This document shows, in pieces, positions 5,849 through 58,418 of a stretch of 64,000 nt of DNA. A program made the position numbers and the translations under genes. The notes under the pieces were generated by a model that worked only from the letters and a program-made list of their open reading frames with translations, was not told where the DNA came from and searched no databases. The stretch spans positions 4,118,501 through 4,182,500 of the forward strand of contig NZ_JACHMG010000001.1 in NCBI RefSeq assembly GCF_014204865.1, written 5' to 3'. Position 1 is the stretch's first letter. Each line of letters starts with the position of its first letter. Source of the stretch: Amycolatopsis jiangsuensis. GTDB lineage: Bacteria > Actinomycetota > Actinomycetes > Mycobacteriales > Pseudonocardiaceae.

Positions 5849-6478
5849 GTGCGCCTCGTTCTCGCCTCCCAGTCCCCCGCCCGCCTGGCCCTCCTGCGCA
5901 GCGCCGGTCTCGACCCGGTCGTGGTCGTGTCCGGGGTCGACGAGGACGCGGTCGCCGCCGCGCTCACCGACCCGGCACCCGAGGAACTGGTGGCGGCACT
6001 GGCCGCCGCCAAGGGGCACGCCGTCCTCGACCAGGTGGCCGCCGCCCATCCGGACGCGACCGTCATCGCCTGCGATTCGATGCTGTCCATCCACGGCGAA
6101 ATGGTCGGCAAACCGGCCACTCCCGAGATCGCCCGCCGACGCTGGGAGGGCATGGCCGGGAAGTCCGGCGAACTGCTCACCGGCCACGCGGTGTTCCGCC
6201 TCGACGGCGGGCAGCACACCAAGCAAGCCGCCGGCACCCGGCGCACGACCGTCCACTTCGGACAGCCCAGTCCGGCCGAGATCGACGCCTACATCGCCAC
6301 CGGTGAACCACTCCAGGTGGCCGGCGCGTTCACCCTCGACGCGCTCGGCGGCTGGTTCGTCGAGGGGGTCGAAGGCGATCCGTCGAGCGTGATCGGGCTC
6401 AGCCTGCCGCTCGCCCGGCAACTGCTGGCCGAGGTCGGCGTGAGTGTCGTGGATCTCTGGCGACCGTCCACATCCTGA
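5849..6478 (+). CDS. maf: Maf-family nucleotide pyrophosphatase, 209 aa
   Basis: The protein starts at GTG 5849 (RLVLASQSPARLALLRSAGL), the family's N-terminal signature. It contains the catalytic-acid segment ACDSML near residue 75 and the substrate loop GKPATPEIARRRW. The C-terminal motif is GWFVEGVEGDPSSVIG. Maf enzymes hydrolyse non-canonical or excess NTPs to NMPs and are linked to septum control. In actinobacteria maf commonly lies near acyl-CoA carboxylase genes, and accA3 follows about 2.6 kb downstream. A longer in-frame extension to 5375 lacks family similarity and was rejected. Confidence 0.9.
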   Translation: MRLVLASQSPARLALLRSAGLDPVVVVSGVDEDAVAAALTDPAPEELVAALAAAKGHAVLDQVAAAHPDATVIACDSMLSIHGEMVGKPATPEIARRRWEGMAGKSGELLTGHAVFRLDGGQHTKQAAGTRRTTVHFGQPSPAEIDAYIATGEPLQVAGAFTLDALGGWFVEGVEGDPSSVIGLSLPLARQLLAEVGVSVVDLWRPSTS

Positions 6479-6563
6479 GAGCACTACCACTCGATCGGGT
6501 GAGCGGGGAGAGTTCGTCGAGGGCCCGGACCGGGCCGGAACTTCTCGATCTTGGGGTGGCTTC

Positions 6564-7910
6564 GTGTCTTTCGTCTCGACGTACACCAGACCACGGGTGT
6601 TCGCCGCCGCGGTTCTCGGTTCGCTCGTGGTGGGTGCCGGCCTCGGTGTGCTCGCCCGTACCGCCGGGGCGGACGGCCTGACCGAGGTGCTGGACCAGAT
6701 CGGCACGGTCTTCACCACGCTGCTGCAGATCGCGGTGATCCCGCTGGTCTTCTCGGCGATCGTGGTCGGCATCACCAGCCTGCGCCGGCTCGGCGGCGGC
6801 CGGAAAGCGGCGCGGCTGGGCAGCAAGACCCTGCTGTGGTTTGCGATCACGTCGTTCATCGCGTCGTTGATCGGCATCGCGGCCGGCCGGCTGTTCGACC
6901 CGGGCACCGGCGGGCTCGGCGCGGGCGTGGCGGCCACCGCGAAGAACGCCGACAAGGCCGCGAAGAGCGTGAGCGACTGGGGTTCCTGGGACGCCTTCAT
7001 CAACGGCCTGCTGCCGGAGAACTTCTTCTCCGCCTTCGCCGAGGGCAACACCCTGCAGGTGCTGTTCCTGGCCGTGCTGATCGGCGCGGCCGCCTACAGC
7101 CTCGGCGACAAGGCGAAGCCGTTCGTCGATTTCACCACGAGCGCGTTCGAAATCATCCAGCGCTACCTCGGCTGGATCGTGCGGCTCGCGCCGATCGGCA
7201 TCATCGGCCTGATCGGCGCCGCGGTGTCCAACTACGGCGACGCGCTGTTCCGCCCGCTGCTCTCCACGACGATCGCGGTCTACGCGGGCTGCCTCGTGGT
7301 GCTGTTCGTCGTGTACCCGCTGCTGCTGAAGTTCGTCGCCAAGGTGAGCCCGCTGACCTTCTTCGCCAAGGCCGGTACGGCGATCCAGTTCGCCTTCGCC
7401 TCGCAGTCGAGCTCCGCGACACTGCCGCTGACCCGGCAGTCCACGGTGAACCTCGGCGTCGATCCGGGTTACGCCGCGTTCGCCGCCCCGCTCGGCAGTG
7501 CGACCAAAATGGACGGTTGCGCCGCGGTGTTCCCCGCGATCGGCGCGATCTTCATCGCCAACCTGTCCGGCGTCTCGCTGAGCTTCGGCCAGTACGTGGG
7601 CATCGTGGTGGTCGCGGTGCTCGGCGCGTTGGCCACCGCAGGCACCACCGGCTGGCTGACCGCGCTGACGCTGACCACCGCGTTCATCGGCCTGGACGCC
7701 AAGCAGGTCGCGCTGGGCCTCGCGCTGATCTACTCGGTGAACCCGATCATGGACATGATGCGCACGGCCACGAACGTCGCCGGCCAGATCGTGGTGCCGA
7801 CGGTCGTGGCGCGCGGCGAGGGCCTGCTCGACGACGAGGTCCTGAACGCCAGCACCGCCCGTCCGCAGCACAGCGACGACGGCGACGCGGCCCGCCCGGT
7901 TCCCGCCTGA
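6564..7910 (+). CDS. Dicarboxylate/amino acid:cation symporter (DAACS family), 448 aa
   Basis: An eight-helix sodium or proton symporter of the SDF/GltP type. Signature pieces are the serine-rich hairpin QSSSATLPLTRQST, the GSATKMDGCAAV stretch and the transport-site helix NPIMDMMRTATNVAGQ. In DctA/GltP homologues the D and R of the last motif bind substrate and the N coordinates cation. GTG at 6564 was chosen because the mature N-terminus (SFVSTYTRPRVFAAA) fits the family and a weak GGGGTGG precedes it. Likely substrates are C4-dicarboxylates or glutamate/aspartate. The gene is 85 bases after maf and could be co-transcribed. Confidence 0.88.
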   Translation: MSFVSTYTRPRVFAAAVLGSLVVGAGLGVLARTAGADGLTEVLDQIGTVFTTLLQIAVIPLVFSAIVVGITSLRRLGGGRKAARLGSKTLLWFAITSFIASLIGIAAGRLFDPGTGGLGAGVAATAKNADKAAKSVSDWGSWDAFINGLLPENFFSAFAEGNTLQVLFLAVLIGAAAYSLGDKAKPFVDFTTSAFEIIQRYLGWIVRLAPIGIIGLIGAAVSNYGDALFRPLLSTTIAVYAGCLVVLFVVYPLLLKFVAKVSPLTFFAKAGTAIQFAFASQSSSATLPLTRQSTVNLGVDPGYAAFAAPLGSATKMDGCAAVFPAIGAIFIANLSGVSLSFGQYVGIVVVAVLGALATAGTTGWLTALTLTTAFIGLDAKQVALGLALIYSVNPIMDMMRTATNVAGQIVVPTVVARGEGLLDDEVLNASTARPQHSDDGDAARPVPA

Positions 7911-9079: not shown

Positions 9080-10876
9080 GTGAGCGAGCAGGACATCGCG
9101 AGCACAGGCGGGCCGGTGACCAAGGTCCTGGTCGCCAACCGGGGTGAGATCGCGGTGCGGGTGATCAGGGCGGCCAAGGACGCCGGCCTGGCCAGCGTGG
9201 CCGTCTACGCCGATCCCGACCGCGACGCCCCGCACGTGCGGCTGGCCGACGAGGCATTCGCCCTCGGTGGCAGCACGGCGGCGGAAAGCTACCTCTCGAT
9301 CGACAAGATCATCGACGCGGCCAAGCGGTCCGGCGCCGATTCGGTGCATCCGGGCTACGGGTTCCTGTCCGAGAACTCCGATTTCGCGCAGGCCGTGCTG
9401 GACGCCGGCCTCACCTGGATCGGACCGAGCCCGCAGTCCATCCGCGACCTCGGTGACAAGGTCACCGCGCGGCACATCGCGACGCGGGCCGGCGCGCCGC
9501 TGGTGCCCGGCACCAAGGAACCGGCCAAGGACGCCGGCGAGATCCTCGCCTTCGCCGACGAGCACGGGCTGCCGGTGGCCATCAAGGCCGCGTTCGGCGG
9601 CGGTGGCCGCGGCCTGAAGGTCGCGCGGACCCGCGAGGAGATCCCCGAGCTGTTCGAATCCGCGACCCGCGAGGCGGTGGCCGCGTTCGGCAGGGGCGAA
9701 TGCTTCGTGGAGCGCTACCTGGACAAGCCGCGACACGTCGAGGCGCAGGTGCTGGCCGACCAGCACGGCAACGCGATCGTGGTCGGTACCCGCGACTGCT
9801 CGCTGCAGCGCCGCCACCAGAAGCTCGTGGAGGAGGCGCCCGCGCCGTACCTCACCGACGAGCAGCGCGCCCGGATCCACGAATCGGCCAAGGCGATCTG
9901 CAAGGAGGCCGGCTACTACGGCGCCGGCACCGTGGAGTACCTGGTGGCCACCGACGGCACCATCTCCTTCCTGGAGGTGAACACCCGGCTGCAGGTCGAG
10001 CACCCGGTGTCCGAGGAGACCACCGGCCTCGACCTGGTGCGGGAGATGTTCCGCATCGCTCGCGGCGAGAAGCTGCGCATTCTCGAGGACCCGGAGCCGC
10101 GCGGCCACTCGATCGAGTTCCGGATCAACGGCGAGGACGCCGGACGCGGCTTCCTGCCCGCCCCCGGGACTGTCACGAAGTTCGTCTCGCCGAACGGGCC
10201 GGGCGTGCGCGTGGACTCCGGGGTGGAGTCCGGCAGCGTCATCGGTGGCCAGTTCGACTCGATGCTCGCGAAGCTGATCGTCACCGGCTCCGACCGGGCG
10301 AACGCCCTGGAGCGCAGCCGGCGCGCGCTGGCCGAATTCGTGGTCGAGGGCATGGCGACGGTGCTGCCGTTCGACCGGGTGATCGTCGACGATCCGGCAT
10401 TCGTCGGCGACGAGAACGGTTTCACCGTGCACACCCGCTGGATCGAGACCGAGTTCGACAACAAGATCGAACCGTTCACCGCCCCGGACGCGGAGGCCGA
10501 GCAAGAGGCACCGCGGCAGAACGTGGTGGTCGAGGTCGGCGGCCGCCGGCTGGAGGTGTCGCTGCCCGGCGGCTTCGCGCTGGAGGGTGGCGGCGCCGCG
10601 GCGACCGCGACGAAGGCGAAGCCGCGCAAGCGTGCCGGTGGTTCGAAGGCCGCGGTGAGCGGCGACGCGGTCACCGCGCCGATGCAGGGCACCATCGTGA
10701 AGATCGGGGTCGAGGAAGGCCAGCACGTCGAGGCGGGCGAGCTGATCCTGGTGCTCGAGGCGATGAAGATGGAAAACCCGGTCACCGCGCACAAAGCGGG
10801 CACGGTGACCGGACTTTCGGTCGAGGTCGGTGCCGCGGTGACCCAGGGCAGCCAGCTGCTGGAGCTCAAGGACTGA
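9080..10876 (+). CDS. accA3: Acetyl/propionyl-CoA carboxylase alpha subunit (biotin carboxylase plus BCCP), 598 aa
   Basis: Biotin carboxylase occupies residues about 15-460: the N-terminal [18 protein letters not shown], the ATP-grasp Gly loop [10 protein letters not shown] and the catalytic [11 protein letters not shown] Lys/Arg-rich linker leads to the biotinyl domain with EAMKMENP, biotin on Lys563. Length and domain order match AccA3 of mycobacteria, which serves acetyl-, propionyl- and long-chain acyl-CoA carboxylases with separate AccD subunits. GTG at 9080 has GGAGG 6 bases upstream. An in-frame ATG at 9041 sits 5 bases after TAGACT and may be a leaderless alternative. Products feed fatty acid synthesis and the mut pathway at 28-33 kb. 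Confidence 0.95.
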
Positions 10877-10930
10877 AGTTGTGCCGGATTTCGTGGGTGG
10901 CCGGGCGCGCGGCGGCATACCATCGTCGAT

Positions 10931-11506
10931 GTGACTGAGGTTCCGTCTCCGCAACTGCGGATCAGCGATCAGGAACGGGAGTCCGCGCTGAACGCGCTCG
11001 GTGAGCACATGAGCGCGGGGCGGATCGACATCGAGGAGTACGGCGAACGTTCGGCCCGGATCACCGCGGCCAAGACCCGCGGTGAGCTGGCCGAGATGTT
11101 CGCCGACCTGCCGGCGCCGCATCCCGCGTACGGCGGCGATGTGCCGGCGGCGACGCCACCCGCGGCCTCCGTCCCGCACCCCGCGGCCCAGCCGCCGGCC
11201 GGGGAAGTGGCCAGGCCCGAGCAGAGCACTCCGGTCATGCAGCGGGTGGTGGCCGGACTGCTGCCGATCCTCTGGATCGCGGCGATCGCCTTGACCGCCA
11301 CCACCGGCGCGTGGGGCGTCATCCTCGTTCCGATCGTGCTCAGCGGTATCGGGGCGTCGGTGTGGGGCAAGCACTTCGACCACCGCGACCGGCACGACCG
11401 GCACCGGGAACGGCTGGAGCGGCACCGGGAGCACCGGCTGGCCCACCTCGAGCACCGCCGCGAGCTGCGCGACGAGTACCGGCGCCGCCGCCGGTTGGAA
11501 CGCTGA
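10931..11506 (+). CDS. DUF1707 membrane protein with a His/Arg-rich tail, 191 aa
   Basis: Residues 8-58 form a DUF1707 domain (LRISDQERESALNALGEH, then GRIDIEEYGERSARITAAKT). A Pro/Ala linker follows, then two membrane segments near 105-145. The highly charged tail (HFDHRDRHDRHRERLERHRE) could be a coiled coil or metal-binding helix. TACCAT at 10918 lies 7 bases before the GTG, a leaderless pattern. It heads a three-gene unit with a shorter DUF1707 paralogue and a sensor kinase. DUF1707 proteins often sit beside envelope-stress kinases, so a sensing role is inferred. Confidence 0.75.
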   Translation: MTEVPSPQLRISDQERESALNALGEHMSAGRIDIEEYGERSARITAAKTRGELAEMFADLPAPHPAYGGDVPAATPPAASVPHPAAQPPAGEVARPEQSTPVMQRVVAGLLPILWIAAIALTATTGAWGVILVPIVLSGIGASVWGKHFDHRDRHDRHRERLERHREHRLAHLEHRRELRDEYRRRRRLER

Positions 11507-44593: not shown

Positions 44594-45775
44594 TCAGACC
44601 CGGGCGAACCGCAAGGTGAAGGTGGCCCCCGCACCGGGGCTGCCGGTGGCCGCGATGGTGCCCCCGTGGCCGGTCACGACCTCCTGCACCAACGCCAGCC
44701 CCAGGCCGAAACGGCGGCCTTCGCCGTTCGAGCCGTGCGCGAAGCGTTCGAAGAGCCGGTCCGCGTGCTGCTGGGGGAAACCCGCGCCGGTGTCGCGGAC
44801 GCGGAGCTCGACGTGCCGCGGGTCCGGGTTCGCCAGGCTCACCTCGATCGAACCGCCCGGCGGGGTGTGCCCGAGCGCGTTGTCCAGCAGCGCCGACAAC
44901 ACGCGCCGCAACGCCGTCGGCACGCCGGAGACGACGTCCTCCAGCCCGGGCGAGCGGCGCAGCCGCAACTCCACCCTGCGGTCGCTCGCGCGCACCGATT
45001 CCGCCGCCACGGCCTGTTCGGCCAAGGTCGCCAACTGCACCGGCACCAGCCGCGGCCGCTCCTTGCCGGCCTGTGCGGACAGCAGCAGATCGTCCACCAC
45101 CTCACCCATTTCGCGCGTGCCGGCTACCAGGGCGTCGAGATCATCCTGAACCGCGCGGCCGCGGTGGGCCAGCAGCTGAGTACGCGTGTGCAGCCGGGTC
45201 AGCGGCGCACGCAGCTCGTGCGAAGCGTCGGCGACGAAGGTGCGCTGCCGCCGCAGCGCCTCGCCGAGCGGGCGGATCGCCCGCTGCGCCAGCAGGTATC
45301 CGCTGACCACCGCGACCACCAGCACGACCAGCTCCGCCGCCCCGAGCCCGAGCAGCAGCTGGTGCCGGTCGGCGATCAGATAGCCCTGCTCGAAGAAGGC
45401 CTGCCAGACCTGACCGTCCCGGTTGACGGTGCGGATCGTGTAGACGGTGTCACCCATGGCGCGTTCTTCGGTGACCACGTCGCCGGCGTGCGGGACCGAC
45501 GGGGCCGGCGGCAGCGTGAACGGCAGTGGCCCGGCCGGCGCGTGTCCCTGCGGGGTGACCAGCCACACGCAACCGGGCGGCGTCTTCGCCGGCCCCTGGC
45601 CGATCGTGTACTCCAGCTGGCGATCGACCTCGGCGACCTGCCCGCGCACCAGGATCCAGTACGCGATACCGCCCGCGACGAGCACCACGAACGTGATCGC
45701 CACGGCGATCTGGCCCGCGATGGTCCGCCGCGCCCGCCGCAGCGCCCGCGTCTCCGCATCGACGACCGTGGTCAT
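44594..45775 (-). CDS. Sensor histidine kinase, OmpR partner type, 393 aa
   Basis: Two membrane helices (about 20-42 and 156-176) bracket an outside domain of about 110 residues. A HAMP-like linker leads to HisKA with the phospho-His in ASHELRAPL. The ATPase domain has LLDNALGHTPPGG, DTGAGF and FGLGLALVQE. ATG at 45775 overlaps the regulator's stop by 4 bases. The signal is unknown. It follows the oxidoreductase/antiporter operon on the same strand and may be read through from it. Confidence 0.92.
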   Translation of the reverse strand: MTTVVDAETRALRRARRTIAGQIAVAITFVVLVAGGIAYWILVRGQVAEVDRQLEYTIGQGPAKTPPGCVWLVTPQGHAPAGPLPFTLPPAPSVPHAGDVVTEERAMGDTVYTIRTVNRDGQVWQAFFEQGYLIADRHQLLLGLGAAELVVLVVAVVSGYLLAQRAIRPLGEALRRQRTFVADASHELRAPLTRLHTRTQLLAHRGRAVQDDLDALVAGTREMGEVVDDLLLSAQAGKERPRLVPVQLATLAEQAVAAESVRASDRRVELRLRRSPGLEDVVSGVPTALRRVLSALLDNALGHTPPGGSIEVSLANPDPRHVELRVRDTGAGFPQQHADRLFERFAHGSNGEGRRFGLGLALVQEVVTGHGGTIAATGSPGAGATFTLRFARV

Positions 45776-46431
45776 ACCGTCCCGATCTGGTAACCCAGCC
45801 CGTGCACGGTCTTCACCACGCCCCGGCCCAGTTTCCGCCGCAGGTAGTACACGTAGGTATCCACAATGGACTCGCCAGCGGATTCGGTGAACACCCCCGC
45901 TCGCAGTGCCGCACGCGGGTGGATCGCCTTCGGCCGCTGCGCGAGCGTGCGCAGGAGCTCGAACTCCCTGCCGGACAGGGTCACCCGCTCGCCGCGGGGC
46001 AGCACCACTTCGTGCCGGTGCAGATCCAGCGCGGCGGTCCCGACCGGCAGGCATTCGGCCTGTTCGAGATCCCGGCGGCACAACGCCCGCATCCGGGCGA
46101 GCAGCTCGTCGGTCTCGAACGGCTTGACCAAATAGTCGTCCGCACCGGCGTCCAGGCCGTGCACCCGGTCGGCCAGCTCACCGAGCGCGGAGAGCACCAG
46201 CACCCGGGCGGACACCGCACGGCGGCGCAACTGCGTCAGCAGCGAGAGCCCGTCCACCACCGGCAGCCGCCGATCCAGGATCAGCACGTCGTACCGCCCG
46301 GTGAGCCCGAGATGCAGACCGCGCTGGCCGTCCGGCGCGTGGTCGGTCTCGTAGCCTTCTCCGGCGAGCAGCTCGGCGAGCATTCCGGCGAGGTCGCGAT
46401 CGTCCTCGACCAGGAGCACCCGGGTGGCCAC
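45772..46431 (-). CDS. OmpR-family response regulator, 219 aa
   Basis: The receiver domain shows LLVEDDRDLAGM, the phospho-Asp in VLILDRRLPVVDG (near residue 46) and DYLVKPFETDELLARM. A winged-helix DNA-binding domain follows (LSGREFELLRTLAQ, VDTYVYYLRRKLG, VHGLGYQ). GTG at 46431 gives the usual start close to the first strand; GTG at 46455 is possible. It is 81 bases after the antiporter gene. TGAGG-type half-sites occur just upstream and again before the first gene of the oxidoreductase operon, so it may control that operon. Confidence 0.92.
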   Translation of the reverse strand: MATRVLLVEDDRDLAGMLAELLAGEGYETDHAPDGQRGLHLGLTGRYDVLILDRRLPVVDGLSLLTQLRRRAVSARVLVLSALGELADRVHGLDAGADDYLVKPFETDELLARMRALCRRDLEQAECLPVGTAALDLHRHEVVLPRGERVTLSGREFELLRTLAQRPKAIHPRAALRAGVFTESAGESIVDTYVYYLRRKLGRGVVKTVHGLGYQIGTV

Positions 46432-46512: not shown

Positions 46513-47784
46513 TCACGTCCGGGCAGTCAGGAGAAATTCGGGCAACTCCCGCCCCTCGTACCGGCGTGCGTCTCGGCGATCGAGCAGGCTGAGCACCGGA
46601 GCGGTCATCACGGTGGTGACCAGCGCGACGAGCACGAGCACCGTGAACAACGCGGGAGAGACGATGCCCGCGGCGAGCCCGACGTTCAGCGCGATCAGCT
46701 GCATCAGCCCGCGCGCGTTCACGAGTACGCCGATGCGGACCGCGACCGGCCCCGGCTCCCCCGCCGCCTGCGCGGCACCCCACGATGCGCCGAGTTTGCC
46801 GACGACCGCGACCACCACGCAGATCAGTGCGAACAGCAGCAGCTTCGGGTCCGCGAGCAGCGCGAAGCGGGTGTTGAGCCCGGAGTAGGTGAAGAACAGG
46901 GGCAGGAACACGACTCGCCCGATCGGCATGATCCGGGCGAGCACCGCGTCCGCCGCCTCCCCACGCGGGAACGCCAGCCCGATCACGAAAGCACCGAACA
47001 CCGCGTACAGCCCCACCACGTCGGTGAACCAGGCGGCCGCGAACAGGATCATCGCGGTGACCAGCAGCCGGTGGTCGTCCGACAGCCGCGGGCTCCGCAT
47101 CGCGTGCACGAGGATCCGGCGTGCCACCAGCCAGACCAGCAGCACGAACAGCACCGCCCCACCGACCGCGAGAGCGATCGGGCCCGCCGAACCGGCGTGC
47201 ATGCCGAGCACCACGGCCAGCAGGATCCAGGCGAGCACGTCGTCGAGTGCCCCGCAGGCGAGGGCGAGCGAGCCGAACCGCGTACTGCCCAGCCCACGTT
47301 CGGTGATGATGCGGGCAAGCATCGGGAACGCCGTGATCGCGAGCGCGACGCCCACGAACGCGGCCGACACCACCGGCGAGACCCCCGGTTTCAGCACTCC
47401 CACCCAGCTCCCGCCGAGCATCGCCACCCCGACGCCGAGCGCGAGCGGCACCACGGTGCCGGCCGCGGACACCGCGGCCACGGTCTTGCGCCCGTCACGC
47501 AACGCACCCATCCGGAACTCGTATCCGGCGCCGAACATGTAGATCACGAGCCCGATCTGGCCGCCGAGGTAGAGCAGGGTGCGCACCTCGTCGGGGAAGA
47601 GCGCTTCCTGCACCCCGGGCAGCAGCAGCCCGAGCAGCGACGGACCGAGCAGGACGCCGGCGATCATCTCGCCCACCACCGGCGGCTGCCCGAGCCGCAC
47701 GGCCAGCGCGCAGACAAGCCGGCAGACCACGAGGATCACCACCACCGCGAGAAAGAACGCGGGTGCCGCCTGAGTCGGGCTCAT
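46513..47784 (-). CDS. Monovalent cation:proton antiporter (CPA2/KefB-like), 423 aa
   Basis: About 12 membrane helices from FFLAVVVILVVCRLVCALAV onward. LGQPPVVGEMIAGVLLGPSL is the CPA2 signature, and a conserved acidic residue sits in a central helix (LACGALDDVLAWILL). There is no C-terminal TrkA-N domain, so it is a short form. ATG at 47784 overlaps the P450 stop by 4 bases. As last gene of a four-gene coupled operon it could correct pH or ion imbalance, or export a charged product; the ion is not known. Confidence 0.88.
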   Translation of the reverse strand: MSPTQAAPAFFLAVVVILVVCRLVCALAVRLGQPPVVGEMIAGVLLGPSLLGLLLPGVQEALFPDEVRTLLYLGGQIGLVIYMFGAGYEFRMGALRDGRKTVAAVSAAGTVVPLALGVGVAMLGGSWVGVLKPGVSPVVSAAFVGVALAITAFPMLARIITERGLGSTRFGSLALACGALDDVLAWILLAVVLGMHAGSAGPIALAVGGAVLFVLLVWLVARRILVHAMRSPRLSDDHRLLVTAMILFAAAWFTDVVGLYAVFGAFVIGLAFPRGEAADAVLARIMPIGRVVFLPLFFTYSGLNTRFALLADPKLLLFALICVVVAVVGKLGASWGAAQAAGEPGPVAVRIGVLVNARGLMQLIALNVGLAAGIVSPALFTVLVLVALVTTVMTAPVLSLLDRRDARRYEGRELPEFLLTART

Positions 47785-49124
47785 TTCCTGCCTCCGTCGA
47801 GGTCGTGGGTCCGGAAGTAGCGGACGCACATCCGCAGCCGCCGCGCGTCGAGGACCATGAACGTGCCGAACACCAGTTGCGCGAGGCTGCGCCACACGTC
47901 TTCCCAGCGGTCCCGGACCGCGAGGTAGGCCAGTACGCCGCGGTCGTCCCGGCCGGAGCCGCGCGGGGTGAGGAACACCGGGCCCCGGTTGGGGATCGAA
48001 CGGGTGTGCGCGGCGCTGGTGGACAGCGAGAACCGGCGCAGGAACTCCCGCGTCACCACGCGCATGGTCACCGGCGCCAGGCCACGCGCCGGGCAGGGCC
48101 GGTTCTGCGCCACCCCGAAGGGCAGGAAGTTCGCCTCCTTGCGGGCGTGTGCCGGGCAGCCCTCCCACCGGGACGGCTCGAACTCCGCCGGCCGGTCGAA
48201 GCCGGCGTGGTGGAAGTCGGGATAGCTGAACAACAGGACGGTGCCCTCGTCGATGGTCCGGTCGGCCAGCTCGATGTCGCCGGTCGCGATCCGGTGGGCG
48301 ATGCCGAACAGCGGGTACGTGCGCAGGCCCTCGTCCAGCACCCGGTCCAGGTACGCGTCGTCGTCCGGGTTCTCGGCCAGCCTGCGCTGCACGTCGGGAC
48401 GCTCGGCGATGATCATCAGCAGGTGCGCCATCGCCTCGGACATCTGCACCACGGCGGTGTTGAAGAACGTGCCCTGCAGGTAGTAGGCCTGCTCCTCGCG
48501 GGTCAGCCGCGACGGCAGCGGGTGCGGCACGTCGTCCAGCCGCCGCCGCAGGTATGCGGTGAGCCGGCCGCGCCGCCGCATGTTGCGTGGCCGCACGCAT
48601 TTCAGCGCGGACACCACGTCGTCCGCGTGCCCGACGATGAGATCGCGTGCCGCACGCGGGCACGGTTCGCCGAACACCAGCTCGTAGTACAGCTCGGCCC
48701 AGATCGGCATCATCTCGTCTCGCAGCCGGATCAGCCTGCCGGAACCGATGTCCAGCTCGCCGAGCACCCGCGTCGCGACGCGCTGGGTCAGCTCCTCGGA
48801 CTCCCCCTTCGGCTTCACGAGGATGTTCCGGGTGGTTTTGGCGACCTCGTCGTAGCGCGGGCCGGGCTCCAGGTGTTCCTGGTGCACCTGCGGCCCCGGA
48901 GCGAGCCAGTACCAGAACAGGTCGGACAGCGCGGCACCCTTGCTGCGGCCGTCCGCGGCCGGGTGTCCGTAGACCTGGCGGAAATCCTCGACCGGCACCA
49001 CGAGCCCCTCGTCGCCGTTGACGAGTGCGAAGATCTTCATGCGCAACGCGATCACCCGTGCGGGCAGCCACTTCGGCAGCGTCGCCACGAGGCCGGCCAG
49101 CGCCAGCAGTACAAGCCTTCTCAT
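47781..49124 (-). CDS. Cytochrome P450 with atypical I-helix and heme loop, 447 aa
   Basis: An N-terminal hydrophobic segment (RRLVLLALAGLVATL) may anchor it. The ExxR pair is E265/R268 in LDEGLRTYP. The heme-ligand Cys is C344 in LPFGVAQNRPCPARGLA, which departs from FGxGxRxCxG. The I-helix (residues about 212-235, YYLQGTFFNTAVVQMSEAM) lacks the acid-alcohol pair used to activate O2, as in peroxygenase- or isomerase-type P450s. About 75 extra residues follow the usual end, including a hydrophobic stretch. ATG at 49124 overlaps the oxidase stop by 4 bases. No ferredoxin or reductase gene is adjacent. Confidence 0.85.
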   Translation of the reverse strand: MRRLVLLALAGLVATLPKWLPARVIALRMKIFALVNGDEGLVVPVEDFRQVYGHPAADGRSKGAALSDLFWYWLAPGPQVHQEHLEPGPRYDEVAKTTRNILVKPKGESEELTQRVATRVLGELDIGSGRLIRLRDEMMPIWAELYYELVFGEPCPRAARDLIVGHADDVVSALKCVRPRNMRRRGRLTAYLRRRLDDVPHPLPSRLTREEQAYYLQGTFFNTAVVQMSEAMAHLLMIIAERPDVQRRLAENPDDDAYLDRVLDEGLRTYPLFGIAHRIATGDIELADRTIDEGTVLLFSYPDFHHAGFDRPAEFEPSRWEGCPAHARKEANFLPFGVAQNRPCPARGLAPVTMRVVTREFLRRFSLSTSAAHTRSIPNRGPVFLTPRGSGRDDRGVLAYLAVRDRWEDVWRSLAQLVFGTFMVLDARRLRMCVRYFRTHDLDGGRK

Positions 49125-50164
49125 CGGACCAGCTCCGCGGTCAGTCCGGCCGGATCGGCCGCCCCGCACAACGCGAACGCGCGATCCACTTCCTCGCGCA
49201 ACCCTTCGAGCACCTCAGTCACTCCTTCCGTGCCTGCCGCGGCGAGCCCCCACAGCGCGGGACGGCCGATTCCCACCGCGCTCGCCCCGAGCGCGAGTGC
49301 TTTCACCACGTCGGTGCCCCGGCGGACTCCGCCATCGAGGATCAGCGGAATCGCACCGTCCACTGCGGACGCCACGGCGGGCAGCGCGTCCATTGTGGAG
49401 ACAGCCGAGTCGAGCTGCCGGCCACCATGGTTGGACACCACCAGACCGGACACGCCCGCCTCGACTGCCAGGCGCGCGTCGCTGGGATGCAAAATGCCCT
49501 TCAAAAGAATCGGCAGCCCGCTGATCGTCCGCAGCCATTCGACGTCCGTCCACGTCAACTCCGCGGGCATCTCGATGTCCCGTACCCGCCCGGTGTCATC
49601 GCGCATGTTCTCGACCGACAGTTCCGGAGGCAGATCGAGAAAACCGTTGCGGTGGTCGCGTTCCCGCTTTCCGAAAACCGCGGAATCGACGGTCACCACC
49701 AGCGCCTTGACGCCGGCCCGTTCCGCCCGGCAAATCACCGCCTTGGTGAATTCCCGGTCCGGTTGCAGGTAGAGCTGAAACCACAACGCCGGATCGTCGG
49801 TGACTTCCCTTGCCGCGGCGACGATGTCCTCGATCGCCGTCGTCGCGGCCATGCTGACCACCAGGACCGTGCCCGCCCGCGCGGCCGCCCGCGCGGTGGC
49901 GAGCTCTCCATCAGGGTGCGCGAGCCGGTGAAACGCCGTCGGGGAAAGGAGAACCGGCATCGACAGCGGTGAGCCCGCGAGCTCCACAGCAAGGTCGCGC
50001 TTGCCGACGTTCCGGAGCACCCGCGGCACCAGCACCCGGCGGCGGAACGCTTCCTCGTTGGCCCGCAGCGTTTCTTCCTCTCCGGCGCCGCCCGCGTAGA
50101 AGTCGTAATGTGCCGGGGCGAGCCGCCTCCGAGCCGCGGTTTCGAGCTCCGCGATCGTGCGCAT
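49121..50164 (-). CDS. FMN-dependent alpha-hydroxyacid oxidase/dehydrogenase, 347 aa
   Basis: A TIM-barrel flavoprotein of the glycolate/lactate oxidase family. Active-site pieces: Y23 in HYDFYAGG, Y132 in LYLQPD, K222 in LLKGIL, catalytic H246 and R249 in SNHGGRQLD. The phosphate site is DGGVRRGTDVVKALALGA. The compact soluble length fits oxidases that reduce O2 to H2O2, though a dehydrogenase is possible. It starts 1 base after the FAD oxidoreductase stop and its own stop overlaps the P450 start. The substrate is unknown. Confidence 0.88.
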   Translation of the reverse strand: MRTIAELETAARRRLAPAHYDFYAGGAGEEETLRANEEAFRRRVLVPRVLRNVGKRDLAVELAGSPLSMPVLLSPTAFHRLAHPDGELATARAAARAGTVLVVSMAATTAIEDIVAAAREVTDDPALWFQLYLQPDREFTKAVICRAERAGVKALVVTVDSAVFGKRERDHRNGFLDLPPELSVENMRDDTGRVRDIEMPAELTWTDVEWLRTISGLPILLKGILHPSDARLAVEAGVSGLVVSNHGGRQLDSAVSTMDALPAVASAVDGAIPLILDGGVRRGTDVVKALALGASAVGIGRPALWGLAAAGTEGVTEVLEGLREEVDRAFALCGAADPAGLTAELVR

Positions 50165-50165
50165 G

Positions 50166-51710
50166 TCAAAGCTGCTGTTCGAAGAACGCGGTCAGCGCCC
50201 CGATGTGCACGTCCCGGTTCCACTCGTTCTCGAGGTTCTCCGTGACGTGGTGCGTGGCGGCCAGCTCGCCGTTCCGGTAATGCTTGACGATCGGATGCAG
50301 GTAGTGCCCTTCGCCGGAATCGTTCGCCACGTCCTGGCTCGCCCGTTTCACCGTGAAGTCGAAAGGGTCGACCTTGTCGTGGTCGGGACCGTAGTCGAGC
50401 GTGATCACGAAGGCGTTCTCCCGCTGCCGCAGCGACGATTCCTCGAACCGGTCCACCGGCATTTCCTCGTAGTACCGGGCTTGGCCCGCGTCCACGGTGA
50501 GGACGTCGCCGAGGAAGCCGAACTGCTGGTAGAGCGCGGAGGTGCGATTGATCCGCGCGATCACGGCGTCGACCAGACCACTGGTTTTCGCGGGCACGTC
50601 GGTGGACGGCCATTCGGTGTCGTGGTGGTGTTCGTCGAGGACCTTGGAAAGCGCCTTCACACCGTACCGGTATCCGTGGATGAAGGCACTGGTCGCCTTC
50701 TTGAAGTCACGGACCTGCGTGATCGTTCCGGCGAAGTACAGTCCGGGCACGTTCACCGATTCCCACGAGGACGTCTGCGCCGGGAACCGGCCGTTGATGA
50801 CCATTTCCGGACGGCAGTCCTCGTCGAACAGCGAGGCGTCGAACCGGAACCCGGTGCAGCCGATCACGCGGTCGTAGCGCAGTTCCTTGATCACCTCGTC
50901 AGCCCGGAAGAACGCGAACTTGACGTGGTAGCCGTCGGCGTCCTTGGTGATCTCGCGAACTTCCCCGTCGAGAATGGCATGCTGCAGTTTGAGCTGGTAC
51001 ATGTCCAGCACGCCGGCGTTGTAGGCACGCACGTGCCCGACGAAGTGCGTGCGCCACGCGAGCTTCACCGGCCGCGGCCCGGCGACGTGCAGTACGGCAG
51101 CGTGCGCGTTGAGGCTGTCCGCGGTCTCGAACGCGGAATTCCCCTTGCCGAGGATCAGCACTCGCTGGTCGTCGAACTGCGCAGGATCGGGATCGAAGTC
51201 CGCGTACTGATCGATCAGGTCCATCCCGGGCACATCCGGCACGTACGGCTTGGTCACGCCGGTCGCCATGATCAGCCGCCGGGACCGGAAGGTGGCGCCG
51301 TCGGCGTCGGTGAGCACGAAGATGTCACCGTCCCGGCTGACGCGGATGACCCGGGTGTTGTAGCGAATGCGAACCTCGTGCTTGGCGGCGTAATCCGCGG
51401 TGTATTGGAGGAACGCTTCGGCCGGCGGGAACAGCTCGTCGCTGTAGTCGGTGAACAGCACCGGGTCGGGCCCGTCGTCGAGCAGCGAGTTCCAGTCCAT
51501 CCGGAGGTTCAGCTCGCGGTCGGTCCACCCGGTGTGTTTCTTGTTGACCGAGATCAACGTCCGGTGCCGCGGATACCGCGTGAAGAACGCGGCGGGTACG
51601 TCCCCGCTTTCGAGCACCAGGTAGTCCCGCCCGGCCGCACCCAGCTGCTGCCCGAGCTGCAAGCCCGCCGGCCCCGCACCGACCACCAGGTACTCCAGCA
51701 CGTCCGCCAT
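50166..51710 (-). CDS. FAD-dependent oxidoreductase (CzcO/FOXRED2-like), 514 aa
   Basis: Two Rossmann sites: FAD at EYLVVGAGPAGLQLGQQLG near residue 6, and NAD(P) at RVLILGKGNSAFETADS near 185. ATGVTKPYVPDVPG follows the pattern of flavin monooxygenase-like enzymes. The C-terminal 150 residues are unlike known monooxygenases and end FFEQQL. ATG at 51710 or the GTG one codon before it both fit GGGAGG upstream. It heads the four-gene operon and could be the NAD(P)H entry point for electrons or hydroxylate the substrate itself. Confidence 0.85.
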   Translation of the reverse strand: MADVLEYLVVGAGPAGLQLGQQLGAAGRDYLVLESGDVPAAFFTRYPRHRTLISVNKKHTGWTDRELNLRMDWNSLLDDGPDPVLFTDYSDELFPPAEAFLQYTADYAAKHEVRIRYNTRVIRVSRDGDIFVLTDADGATFRSRRLIMATGVTKPYVPDVPGMDLIDQYADFDPDPAQFDDQRVLILGKGNSAFETADSLNAHAAVLHVAGPRPVKLAWRTHFVGHVRAYNAGVLDMYQLKLQHAILDGEVREITKDADGYHVKFAFFRADEVIKELRYDRVIGCTGFRFDASLFDEDCRPEMVINGRFPAQTSSWESVNVPGLYFAGTITQVRDFKKATSAFIHGYRYGVKALSKVLDEHHHDTEWPSTDVPAKTSGLVDAVIARINRTSALYQQFGFLGDVLTVDAGQARYYEEMPVDRFEESSLRQRENAFVITLDYGPDHDKVDPFDFTVKRASQDVANDSGEGHYLHPIVKHYRNGELAATHHVTENLENEWNRDVHIGALTAFFEQQL

Positions 51711-57437: not shown

Positions 57438-58418
57438 CTACCTCCCCGCGGCACGGGCGAGGCGTTCCGGGTAACGGGCTCCGGCCACCGCGTCGGACGG
57501 GGCGGCCTGTTCGATGGCCGCCAGGTCCTTTTCGGACAGTTCGAGCTCCGCGGCCGCGACGTTCTCCTCCAGGTACTTGCGCCGCTTCGTACCCGGGATC
57601 GGGACGACGTCCGGTCCCTTCGCCTGCACCCAGGCCAGCGCCAGTTGCCCTGCGGTCACCTTCTTCTCCGCGGCGAGCGTCCGGAGCGCGTCCACGATCG
57701 CCAGGTTCCGCTCGAAATTGCCGTCGGCGAACCGGGGCATGGTGCGGCGCACGTCGTCGTCCGGCAGGTCCTTCAGCGACGTGACCGCGCCAGTGAGGAA
57801 ACCGCGGCCGAGCGGCGAGAACGGTACGATTCCGATGCCGAGCTCCCGGCAGGTGCCCAGGATTTCGTCCTCGATGCCCCTGGTCCACAACGACCACTCA
57901 CTCTGCAACGCGGCGACCGGGTGCACGGCGTGGGCCCGGCGGATCGTTGCGGCGCCGGCCTCCGAAATGCCCGCGTGCCGGATCTTCCCGGCGTCGGCGA
58001 GTTCGGCGAGCGCGCCCCAGGTCTCCTCGATCGGCACGTCCGGGTCGACCCGGTGCTGGTAGTAGAGATCGATGTGGTCCACCCCGAGCCGCCGCAGCGA
58101 CTCGTCACAACACTGCTTCACATAGGCCGCGTCACCGCGGGCGGTCATTCCGTCCTCGGTCCAGACGATGCCGAACTTCGTCGCCAGCACCAGCTCGTCC
58201 CGCCGGCCCGCGATCGCCCGGCCGACCAGCTTCTCGTTCTCCCCCGCGCCGTACACGTTCGCGGTGTCGAACAGCGTCACCCCCAGGTCCAGCGCCCGGT
58301 GCACGGTGGCGATCGACTCGTCGTCGTTGTCCCGGACGCCGTAGGCCTGGCTCATCCCCATGCAACCCAGTCCCTGGGCGCCGACTTCCAGTCCGCCGAT
58401 TTTTCTCGTGCCGATCAC
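57438..58418 (-). CDS. Aldo/keto reductase, 326 aa
   Basis: The AKR barrel is recognisable from [18 protein letters not shown]. The catalytic tetrad lies in [14 protein letters not shown] (Asp and Tyr), ELVLATKFG (Lys) and YYQHRVDP (His). The NADPH loop near the end is [16 protein letters not shown]. It belongs to the AKR12/13-like group of actinobacterial and yeast reductases acting on aldehydes. GTG at 58418 overlaps the MerR stop by 4 bases, so the pair is one operon driven by a MerR-type promoter. Confidence 0.92.

Follow-up and report, generated by a model that had tools for sequence, protein, structure and literature searches.

An Amycolatopsis operon for an FAD oxidoreductase, a hydroxyacid oxidase, an atypical P450, and an antiporter as a candidate representative of a widespread oxidation cassette

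The stretch of DNA analyzed here (the window) comprises 64,000 nucleotides of the 8.05-Mb genome of Amycolatopsis jiangsuensis, a soil bacterium, and the closest named relatives of the P450 and the FAD protein that it encodes are from Amycolatopsis. The operon of interest and its associated features are as follows.

50166..51710, minus strand: FAD oxidoreductase (P0001), 514 amino acids, with a TrxR/FMO-like fold, no CxxC, and an extra C-terminal region
49121..50164, minus strand: FMN alpha-hydroxyacid oxidase (P0002), 347 amino acids, closest to glycolate oxidase/HAO1
47781..49124, minus strand: atypical cytochrome P450 (P0003), 447 amino acids, with an N-terminal hydrophobic helix and a C-terminal helical extension
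48444..48449, minus strand: V226-Q227 of the P450 I-helix, replacing the acid-alcohol pair (placed by alignment register)
48087..48119, minus strand: P450 heme-thiolate loop, FGVAQNRPCPA, with Cys344 at 48093-48095
46513..47784, minus strand: CPA2-like cation:proton antiporter (P0004), 423 amino acids
45772..46455, minus strand: OmpR-type response regulator, on the same strand and 57 bases downstream of the antiporter gene
about 44594..45775, minus strand: sensor histidine kinase (the start is an internal ATG picked by eye; the mechanical open reading frame begins at 46081)
57438..58391, minus strand: aldo/keto reductase, separated from the FAD gene by gas vesicle genes

The FAD and oxidase genes are separated by a single base (TGA c ATG), and the oxidase/P450 and P450/antiporter junctions are 4-base ATGA overlaps; an earlier, sequence-only reading of this DNA had placed the four minus-strand reading frames, both overlaps, and the gap correctly. 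An alternative GTG start upstream of the FAD gene would extend it to 51734. Gas vesicle genes encoding GvpO, Gas_vesicle, and two GvpL/F proteins occupy the plus strand from 51993 to at least 56409 and begin ~280 bases away from the FAD gene on its upstream side. They part the FAD gene from the aldo/keto reductase gene, its direct upstream neighbor in related Amycolatopsis, and so look inserted in the window.

We searched for the operon in three samples of genomes. For the close set, 60 genomes (A. jiangsuensis included) were searched, and 20 regions, picked by their FAD matches, were fetched. The P450 was matched at an E value of 1e-20 or better in 21 of the 60 genomes (own genome included), and the 20 matches from other genomes fell inside the same 20 regions that the FAD matches had picked. 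All 20 related loci carried the FAD, oxidase, and P450 genes in order; at the extremes of spacing, neighboring genes overlapped by 19 bases or stood 62 bases apart (as measured from the match start). For the wide set, which held one genome per species from 84,980 species, 336 loci encoded a P450 relative, and the best 80 of the 336 were read. Among these best 80, the P450 was present in 80 loci, the oxidase in 78, the FAD enzyme in 77, the antiporter in 62, and the full trio in 75. The misses in L067 and L070 are contig ends. The oxidase gene has truly been lost from L055 and L072, in which the P450 match starts 5 and 22 bases, respectively, past the FAD stop codon, and L062 has no FAD match. 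In a phylum sample of 296 genomes, for which five candidates per genome were scored, 5 genomes (own genome included) had the P450, and FAD matches with E values below 1e-160 occurred in exactly the same 5 genomes; 8 further genomes had weaker FAD matches (E values of 1e-61 to 1e-72) and no P450.

Because the trio is kept in 20/20 close and 75/80 wide loci and the FAD enzyme and P450 co-occur across the phylum sample, the arrangement is, judged by gene order, not due to chance. Many loci come from close relatives, so the counts do not represent independent events. Pairwise protein distances across 95 loci gave r values of 0.87 (FAD-oxidase), 0.88 (FAD-P450), and 0.88 (oxidase-P450), and across the 73 loci with an antiporter, r was 0.85 for antiporter-P450 versus 0.95 for FAD-P450; part of each correlation stems from shared phylogeny. 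The retention of gene order in many genera upholds the joint function that the sequence-only reading had proposed from the tight gene junctions. A point against the shared-cassette reading is one relative, G045, in which an FAD homologue (43%) occurs but the P450 does not.

Several loci differ in their genomic settings. L090, from Paraburkholderia acidicola, is the only Paraburkholderia locus among the best 80 of 336. In L045 and L060, the cassette lies on contigs of metagenome-assembled genomes labeled Melainabacteria and Sulfopaludibacter, where transfer or misbinning is possible. L060 and L090 are the two non-actinobacterial-labeled loci that extend far enough downstream to show a Haem_oxygenas_2 gene (PF14518) after the cassette, at 6477-7304 and 10394-11449, respectively. 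In L065, L069, L079, L083, and L095, from Kibdelosporangium, Rhodococcus, and Actinosynnema, the cassette occupies one fixed chromosomal site, the neighbors of which look YebC-, Ruv-, and SecD/SecF-type (names assigned by eye).

The 20 close and 80 wide loci were also searched for accessory genes by tblastn, with a single query per gene and an E value of 1e-20. The sequence-only reading had named retention of the whole four-gene neighborhood in relatives as a check on its proposal; this held for the trio, but the antiporter was present in only 16/20 close and 62/80 wide loci. An MFS carrier was found in 1/20 close and 8/80 wide loci, and none of these nine loci (two of which, L108 and L110, are contigs of one strain) has the antiporter; by this pattern of gene content, therefore, the transporter slot, antiporter included, is exchangeable. 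The window's antiporter scored above the cut-off for PF00999 (168.5 bits) and below that for TIGR00932 (132.5 versus 238.3 bits), and for the one MFS carrier that was scanned, the top NCBIfam match was an aromatic acid/H+ symport model, below its cut-off. In counting four genes to the cassette, the sequence-only reading missed the two-component system, which lies near it in most loci (histidine kinase, 16/20 close and 58/80 wide; response regulator, 16/20 and 54/80). Cys-x-Trp recurs in the sensor regions of five relatives, preceded by a Pro at a distance of one or two residues. The remaining genes were an aldo/keto reductase (14/20 close and 16/80 wide loci), an AMP/CoA ligase (2/20 and 35/80), a sulfotransferase (0/20 and 24/80), an aromatic-amino-acid-lyase family gene (1/20 and 7/80), a DUF6282 hydrolase (3/20 and 8/80), a haem-oxygenase-like protein (0/20 and 2/80), and an aldehyde dehydrogenase (10/20 and 5/80), for which the seven matches in close Amycolatopsis loci were only 32 to 33% identical and several kilobases off. 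The ligase, lyase, and sulfotransferase genes are visible in the loci of relatives, outside what the window alone shows. The one lyase scanned had histidine ammonia-lyase models as its top matches, below their cut-offs; the accessory lyase may carry a Tyr-selecting His-Leu motif. In Spongiactinospora loci L104 and L107 (7297-7905), a sulfotransferase-like gene with 45 to 46% identity to the query lies between the oxidase and P450 genes.

The assignment of the second gene to the alpha-hydroxyacid oxidases was supported: the protein is an FMN enzyme that scored 416.4 bits against PF01070, Pfam matched no heme domain in it, and its catalytic residues are intact, with Lys222, His246, Arg249, and Asp160 present in 99/99 copies. 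Two families were rejected for the FAD enzyme. The FMO fingerprint is a motif with a conserved His, and at that place Tyr169 stands in 102/102 readable copies; with a PF00743 score of 11.6 bits, under the cut-off of 22, this spoke against membership among the flavin-containing or Baeyer-Villiger monooxygenases. The thioredoxin and disulfide reductases were set aside as well, as the window's FAD protein has no CxxC; Cys occurs in over 30% of copies solely at columns 285 and 299. The enzyme may resemble human FOXRED2.

The P450 scored 76.1 bits against PF00067 (cut-off, 22.8; Pfam), and its structure model (pLDDT of 88.9, falling under 50 at residues 341-343) has the P450 fold, in agreement with the family named by the sequence-only reading; all 50 matches shown per fold comparison are P450s, and the comparisons rule out no family. 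Copies numbered 101, including four duplicate pairs, leaving 97 distinct. A hydrophobic N-terminal stretch is present in most of them, and the protein is probably membrane associated. The window's copy retains E265 and R268 (ExxR), R319, and Cys344. Both motifs that had been quoted from it, GTFFNTAVVQ in the I-helix and the heme loop, are present. The acid-alcohol pair is absent, as had been claimed, but its site is occupied by V226-Q227, a helical turn beyond the FFNT that had been stressed; the register comes from alignments to CYP3A4 and GcoA that are gap-free in the helix. FFNT resembles plant AOS, and N222 was considered as the distal residue and dropped, since the alignments place Q227, not N222, at the Thr site. 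The usual P450 heme motif carries two glycines, and the loop here has neither; relative to CYP3A4, one extra residue separates Cys344 from Phe-Gly, and the loop was rightly called unusual. Val-Gln at the acid-alcohol position and N341, R342, C344, P345, and A346 of the Cys loop are all invariant in the 97/97 distinct copies, and this invariance suggests specialized P450 chemistry. In 17 of the 97 distinct copies, the meander is missing (the conserved Arg being gone) and Asp replaces the ExxR Glu, the same 17 in both cases; these copies (L020, L022-L027, L037-L041, L046, L047, L052, L053, and L066) all come from Amycolatopsis or same-genus genomes.

We propose, with a probability of about 0.55, that the operon represents, in Amycolatopsis, a widespread and regulated oxidation cassette that oxidizes one organic acid stepwise. 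The trio stays together in a fixed order, as a rule alongside a transporter, and a two-component regulator often lies close by. The regulator would switch the cassette on. The FAD enzyme, with its NAD(P)H-type fold, would introduce or remove an oxygen function on the organic acid; the FMN enzyme would convert a 2-hydroxy acid to a 2-oxo acid and H2O2; and the P450, probably at the membrane, would carry out another step, in which the usual proton relay is missing and either a peroxide is handled or a ferredoxin with its gene elsewhere in the genome supplies electrons. The transporter would move substrate or product or balance pH. Perhaps the likeliest substrate is an aryl acid, given that the loci of some relatives also hold a gene of the aromatic-amino-acid-lyase family, an acyl-CoA/AMP ligase, or an aromatic-acid-type MFS carrier; this guess rests on those relatives and on no gene of the window. 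Since the accessory genes vary by lineage (aldo/keto reductase, sulfotransferase, ligase, lyase, and aldehyde dehydrogenase/DUF6282), the substrate may vary too, and since the oxidase is missing from L055 and L072 and the FAD match from L062, no single order of steps applies to every locus.

Several other readings of the P450 step have to be weighed; the first three overlap the shared-cassette proposal, and the probabilities that we attach to them do not sum to one. A tentative but genuine contender is that the P450 is an ordinary monooxygenase that tolerates the missing pair and draws on redox partners in trans, with the oxidase and FAD enzyme catalyzing neighboring pathway steps. The sequence-only reading had stressed that no ferredoxin gene was present; when window and genome were searched for one ferredoxin family, Fer4_13 (PF13370), the window indeed contained none, but eight matches were found elsewhere in the genome, the nearest ~23 kb from the FAD gene, and the absence of a ferredoxin from the operon therefore says little. 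When 100 related loci were scanned with a crude cysteine pattern, the 10 resulting matches seemed, by eye, to lie in non-coding frames. The top PDB sequence matches include the monooxygenases CYP3A4, CYP11B2, and GcoA, but the same lists contain the SPalpha peroxygenase and mycocyclosin synthase, and the specialized chemistry suggested by the invariant Val-Gln and Cys-loop residues also argues against a monooxygenase of the ordinary kind.

The sequence-only reading had favored a different scheme, in which H2O2 made by the oxidase drives the P450 as a peroxygenase and a redox partner is unneeded. The adjoining genes, the missing acid-alcohol pair, and the intact oxidase site fit such a scheme, and the invariant amide Gln leaves room for a peroxide-type mechanism. 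We nevertheless consider it unlikely. L055 and L072 keep the FAD and P450 genes back to back with the oxidase gone; the L055 genome (Nonomuraea solani) yielded no oxidase relative at an E value of 1e-40 (66 candidates scored), and the L072 genome has just a 48% oxidase paralogue, elsewhere. Ferredoxins, moreover, are encoded elsewhere in the A. jiangsuensis genome. In the CYP152 peroxygenases, according to excerpts of PMC5377825, Arg-Pro replaces the I-helix pair; the P450 here has Val-Gln in 97/97 distinct copies, and membership in CYP152 was rejected on this feature.

Quite unlikely, in our view, is a hydroperoxide-rearranging P450 resembling PGIS or plant AOS, which would isomerize or dehydrate an oxygenated substrate without external electrons and with Q227 as the distal residue. 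P450cin has Asn at that I-helix place and yet is a monooxygenase. The P450 here has an invariant amide at the Thr-equivalent place, Gln versus the Asn of PGIS and AOS, in a register taken from the gap-free CYP3A4 and GcoA alignments and not from coordinates. Excerpts of PMC13049297 describe Asn at the distal axial SRS4 position of the self-sufficient PGIS, plant AOS, LDS, and EAS, which favors the idea, but they also report that other self-sufficient hydroperoxide P450s are without that Asn and that it is dispensable in LDS and EAS. Among the subset of neighbor genes that was annotated, no lipoxygenase or dioxygenase was recognized.

A self-refueling loop is a long shot. The P450 would use H2O2 to 2-hydroxylate an acid, a reaction described for SPalpha in an excerpt of PMC5377825; the FMN oxidase would then, with O2, oxidize the 2-hydroxy acid to the 2-oxo acid and return exactly one H2O2, giving a reductant-free alpha-oxidation. 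Processing of the 2-oxo acid would fall to the FAD enzyme and, in some loci, to aldehyde or keto reductases, and L055 and L072 would be derived forms that draw H2O2 from elsewhere. Finally, it is very improbable that the P450 is a heme protein for sensing or electron carrying or, in some lineages, is on the way to losing its catalytic function, as the 17 copies without the meander Arg and with Asp for the ExxR Glu might suggest, for the window's copy keeps E265, R268, and R319 and Cys344 is invariant in 97/97.

The shared oxidation cassette thus remains our preferred reading. No description of an FAD-oxidase-P450-antiporter gene set was found in the open-access literature; as far as that literature was searched, the cassette is undescribed, and its parts belong to known families. 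It is probably useful to its hosts, given that many actinobacterial genera keep it and that one Paraburkholderia locus turned up among the best 80 of 336. The P450 branch, with Val-Gln and a longer Cys loop, offers a natural test of the residues needed for oxygen or peroxide activation, and the loci without the oxidase and those with meander-less P450s provide ready-made comparisons.

Among known systems, the CYP152 enzymes (BSbeta, SPalpha, and OleT) are alike in having the P450 fold and in missing the acid-alcohol pair; the P450 here differs in its Val-Gln and its C-terminal extension, and the similarity is only remote (profile E value of about 7e-7, to SPalpha). The best NCBIfam match was to the ApyO P450 (NF050147), at 58.7 bits, far under the 525-bit cut-off, and assignment to that family was rejected on this score. 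ApyO, of aminopyruvatide biosynthesis, cross-links two Tyr residues of a peptide, according to an excerpt of PMC10635010. The four genes here, in contrast, include no peptide, MNIO, or rSAM gene. Fungal dioxygenase-P450 fusions, PGIS, and plant AOS have an amide at the distal I-helix place, as the P450 here seems to have by alignment register, but those enzymes are eukaryotic, the amide here is Gln and not Asn, and no dioxygenase partner was recognized. The FAD enzyme differs from YpdA/Bdr and SMFMO-type flavoenzymes in having no CxxC, Tyr169 for the FMO His, and an extra ~150 C-terminal amino acids. The oxidase matches glycolate oxidase/hydroxyacid oxidase 1 over its full length (297 bits) and shares the catalytic Lys, His, Arg, and Asp with it. 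It differs in a shorter loop between its two halves and at the places of GOX Trp108 and Tyr24, where Ala (86/99 copies) or Leu (13/99) replaces the former and, in the window's copy, Phe replaces the latter.
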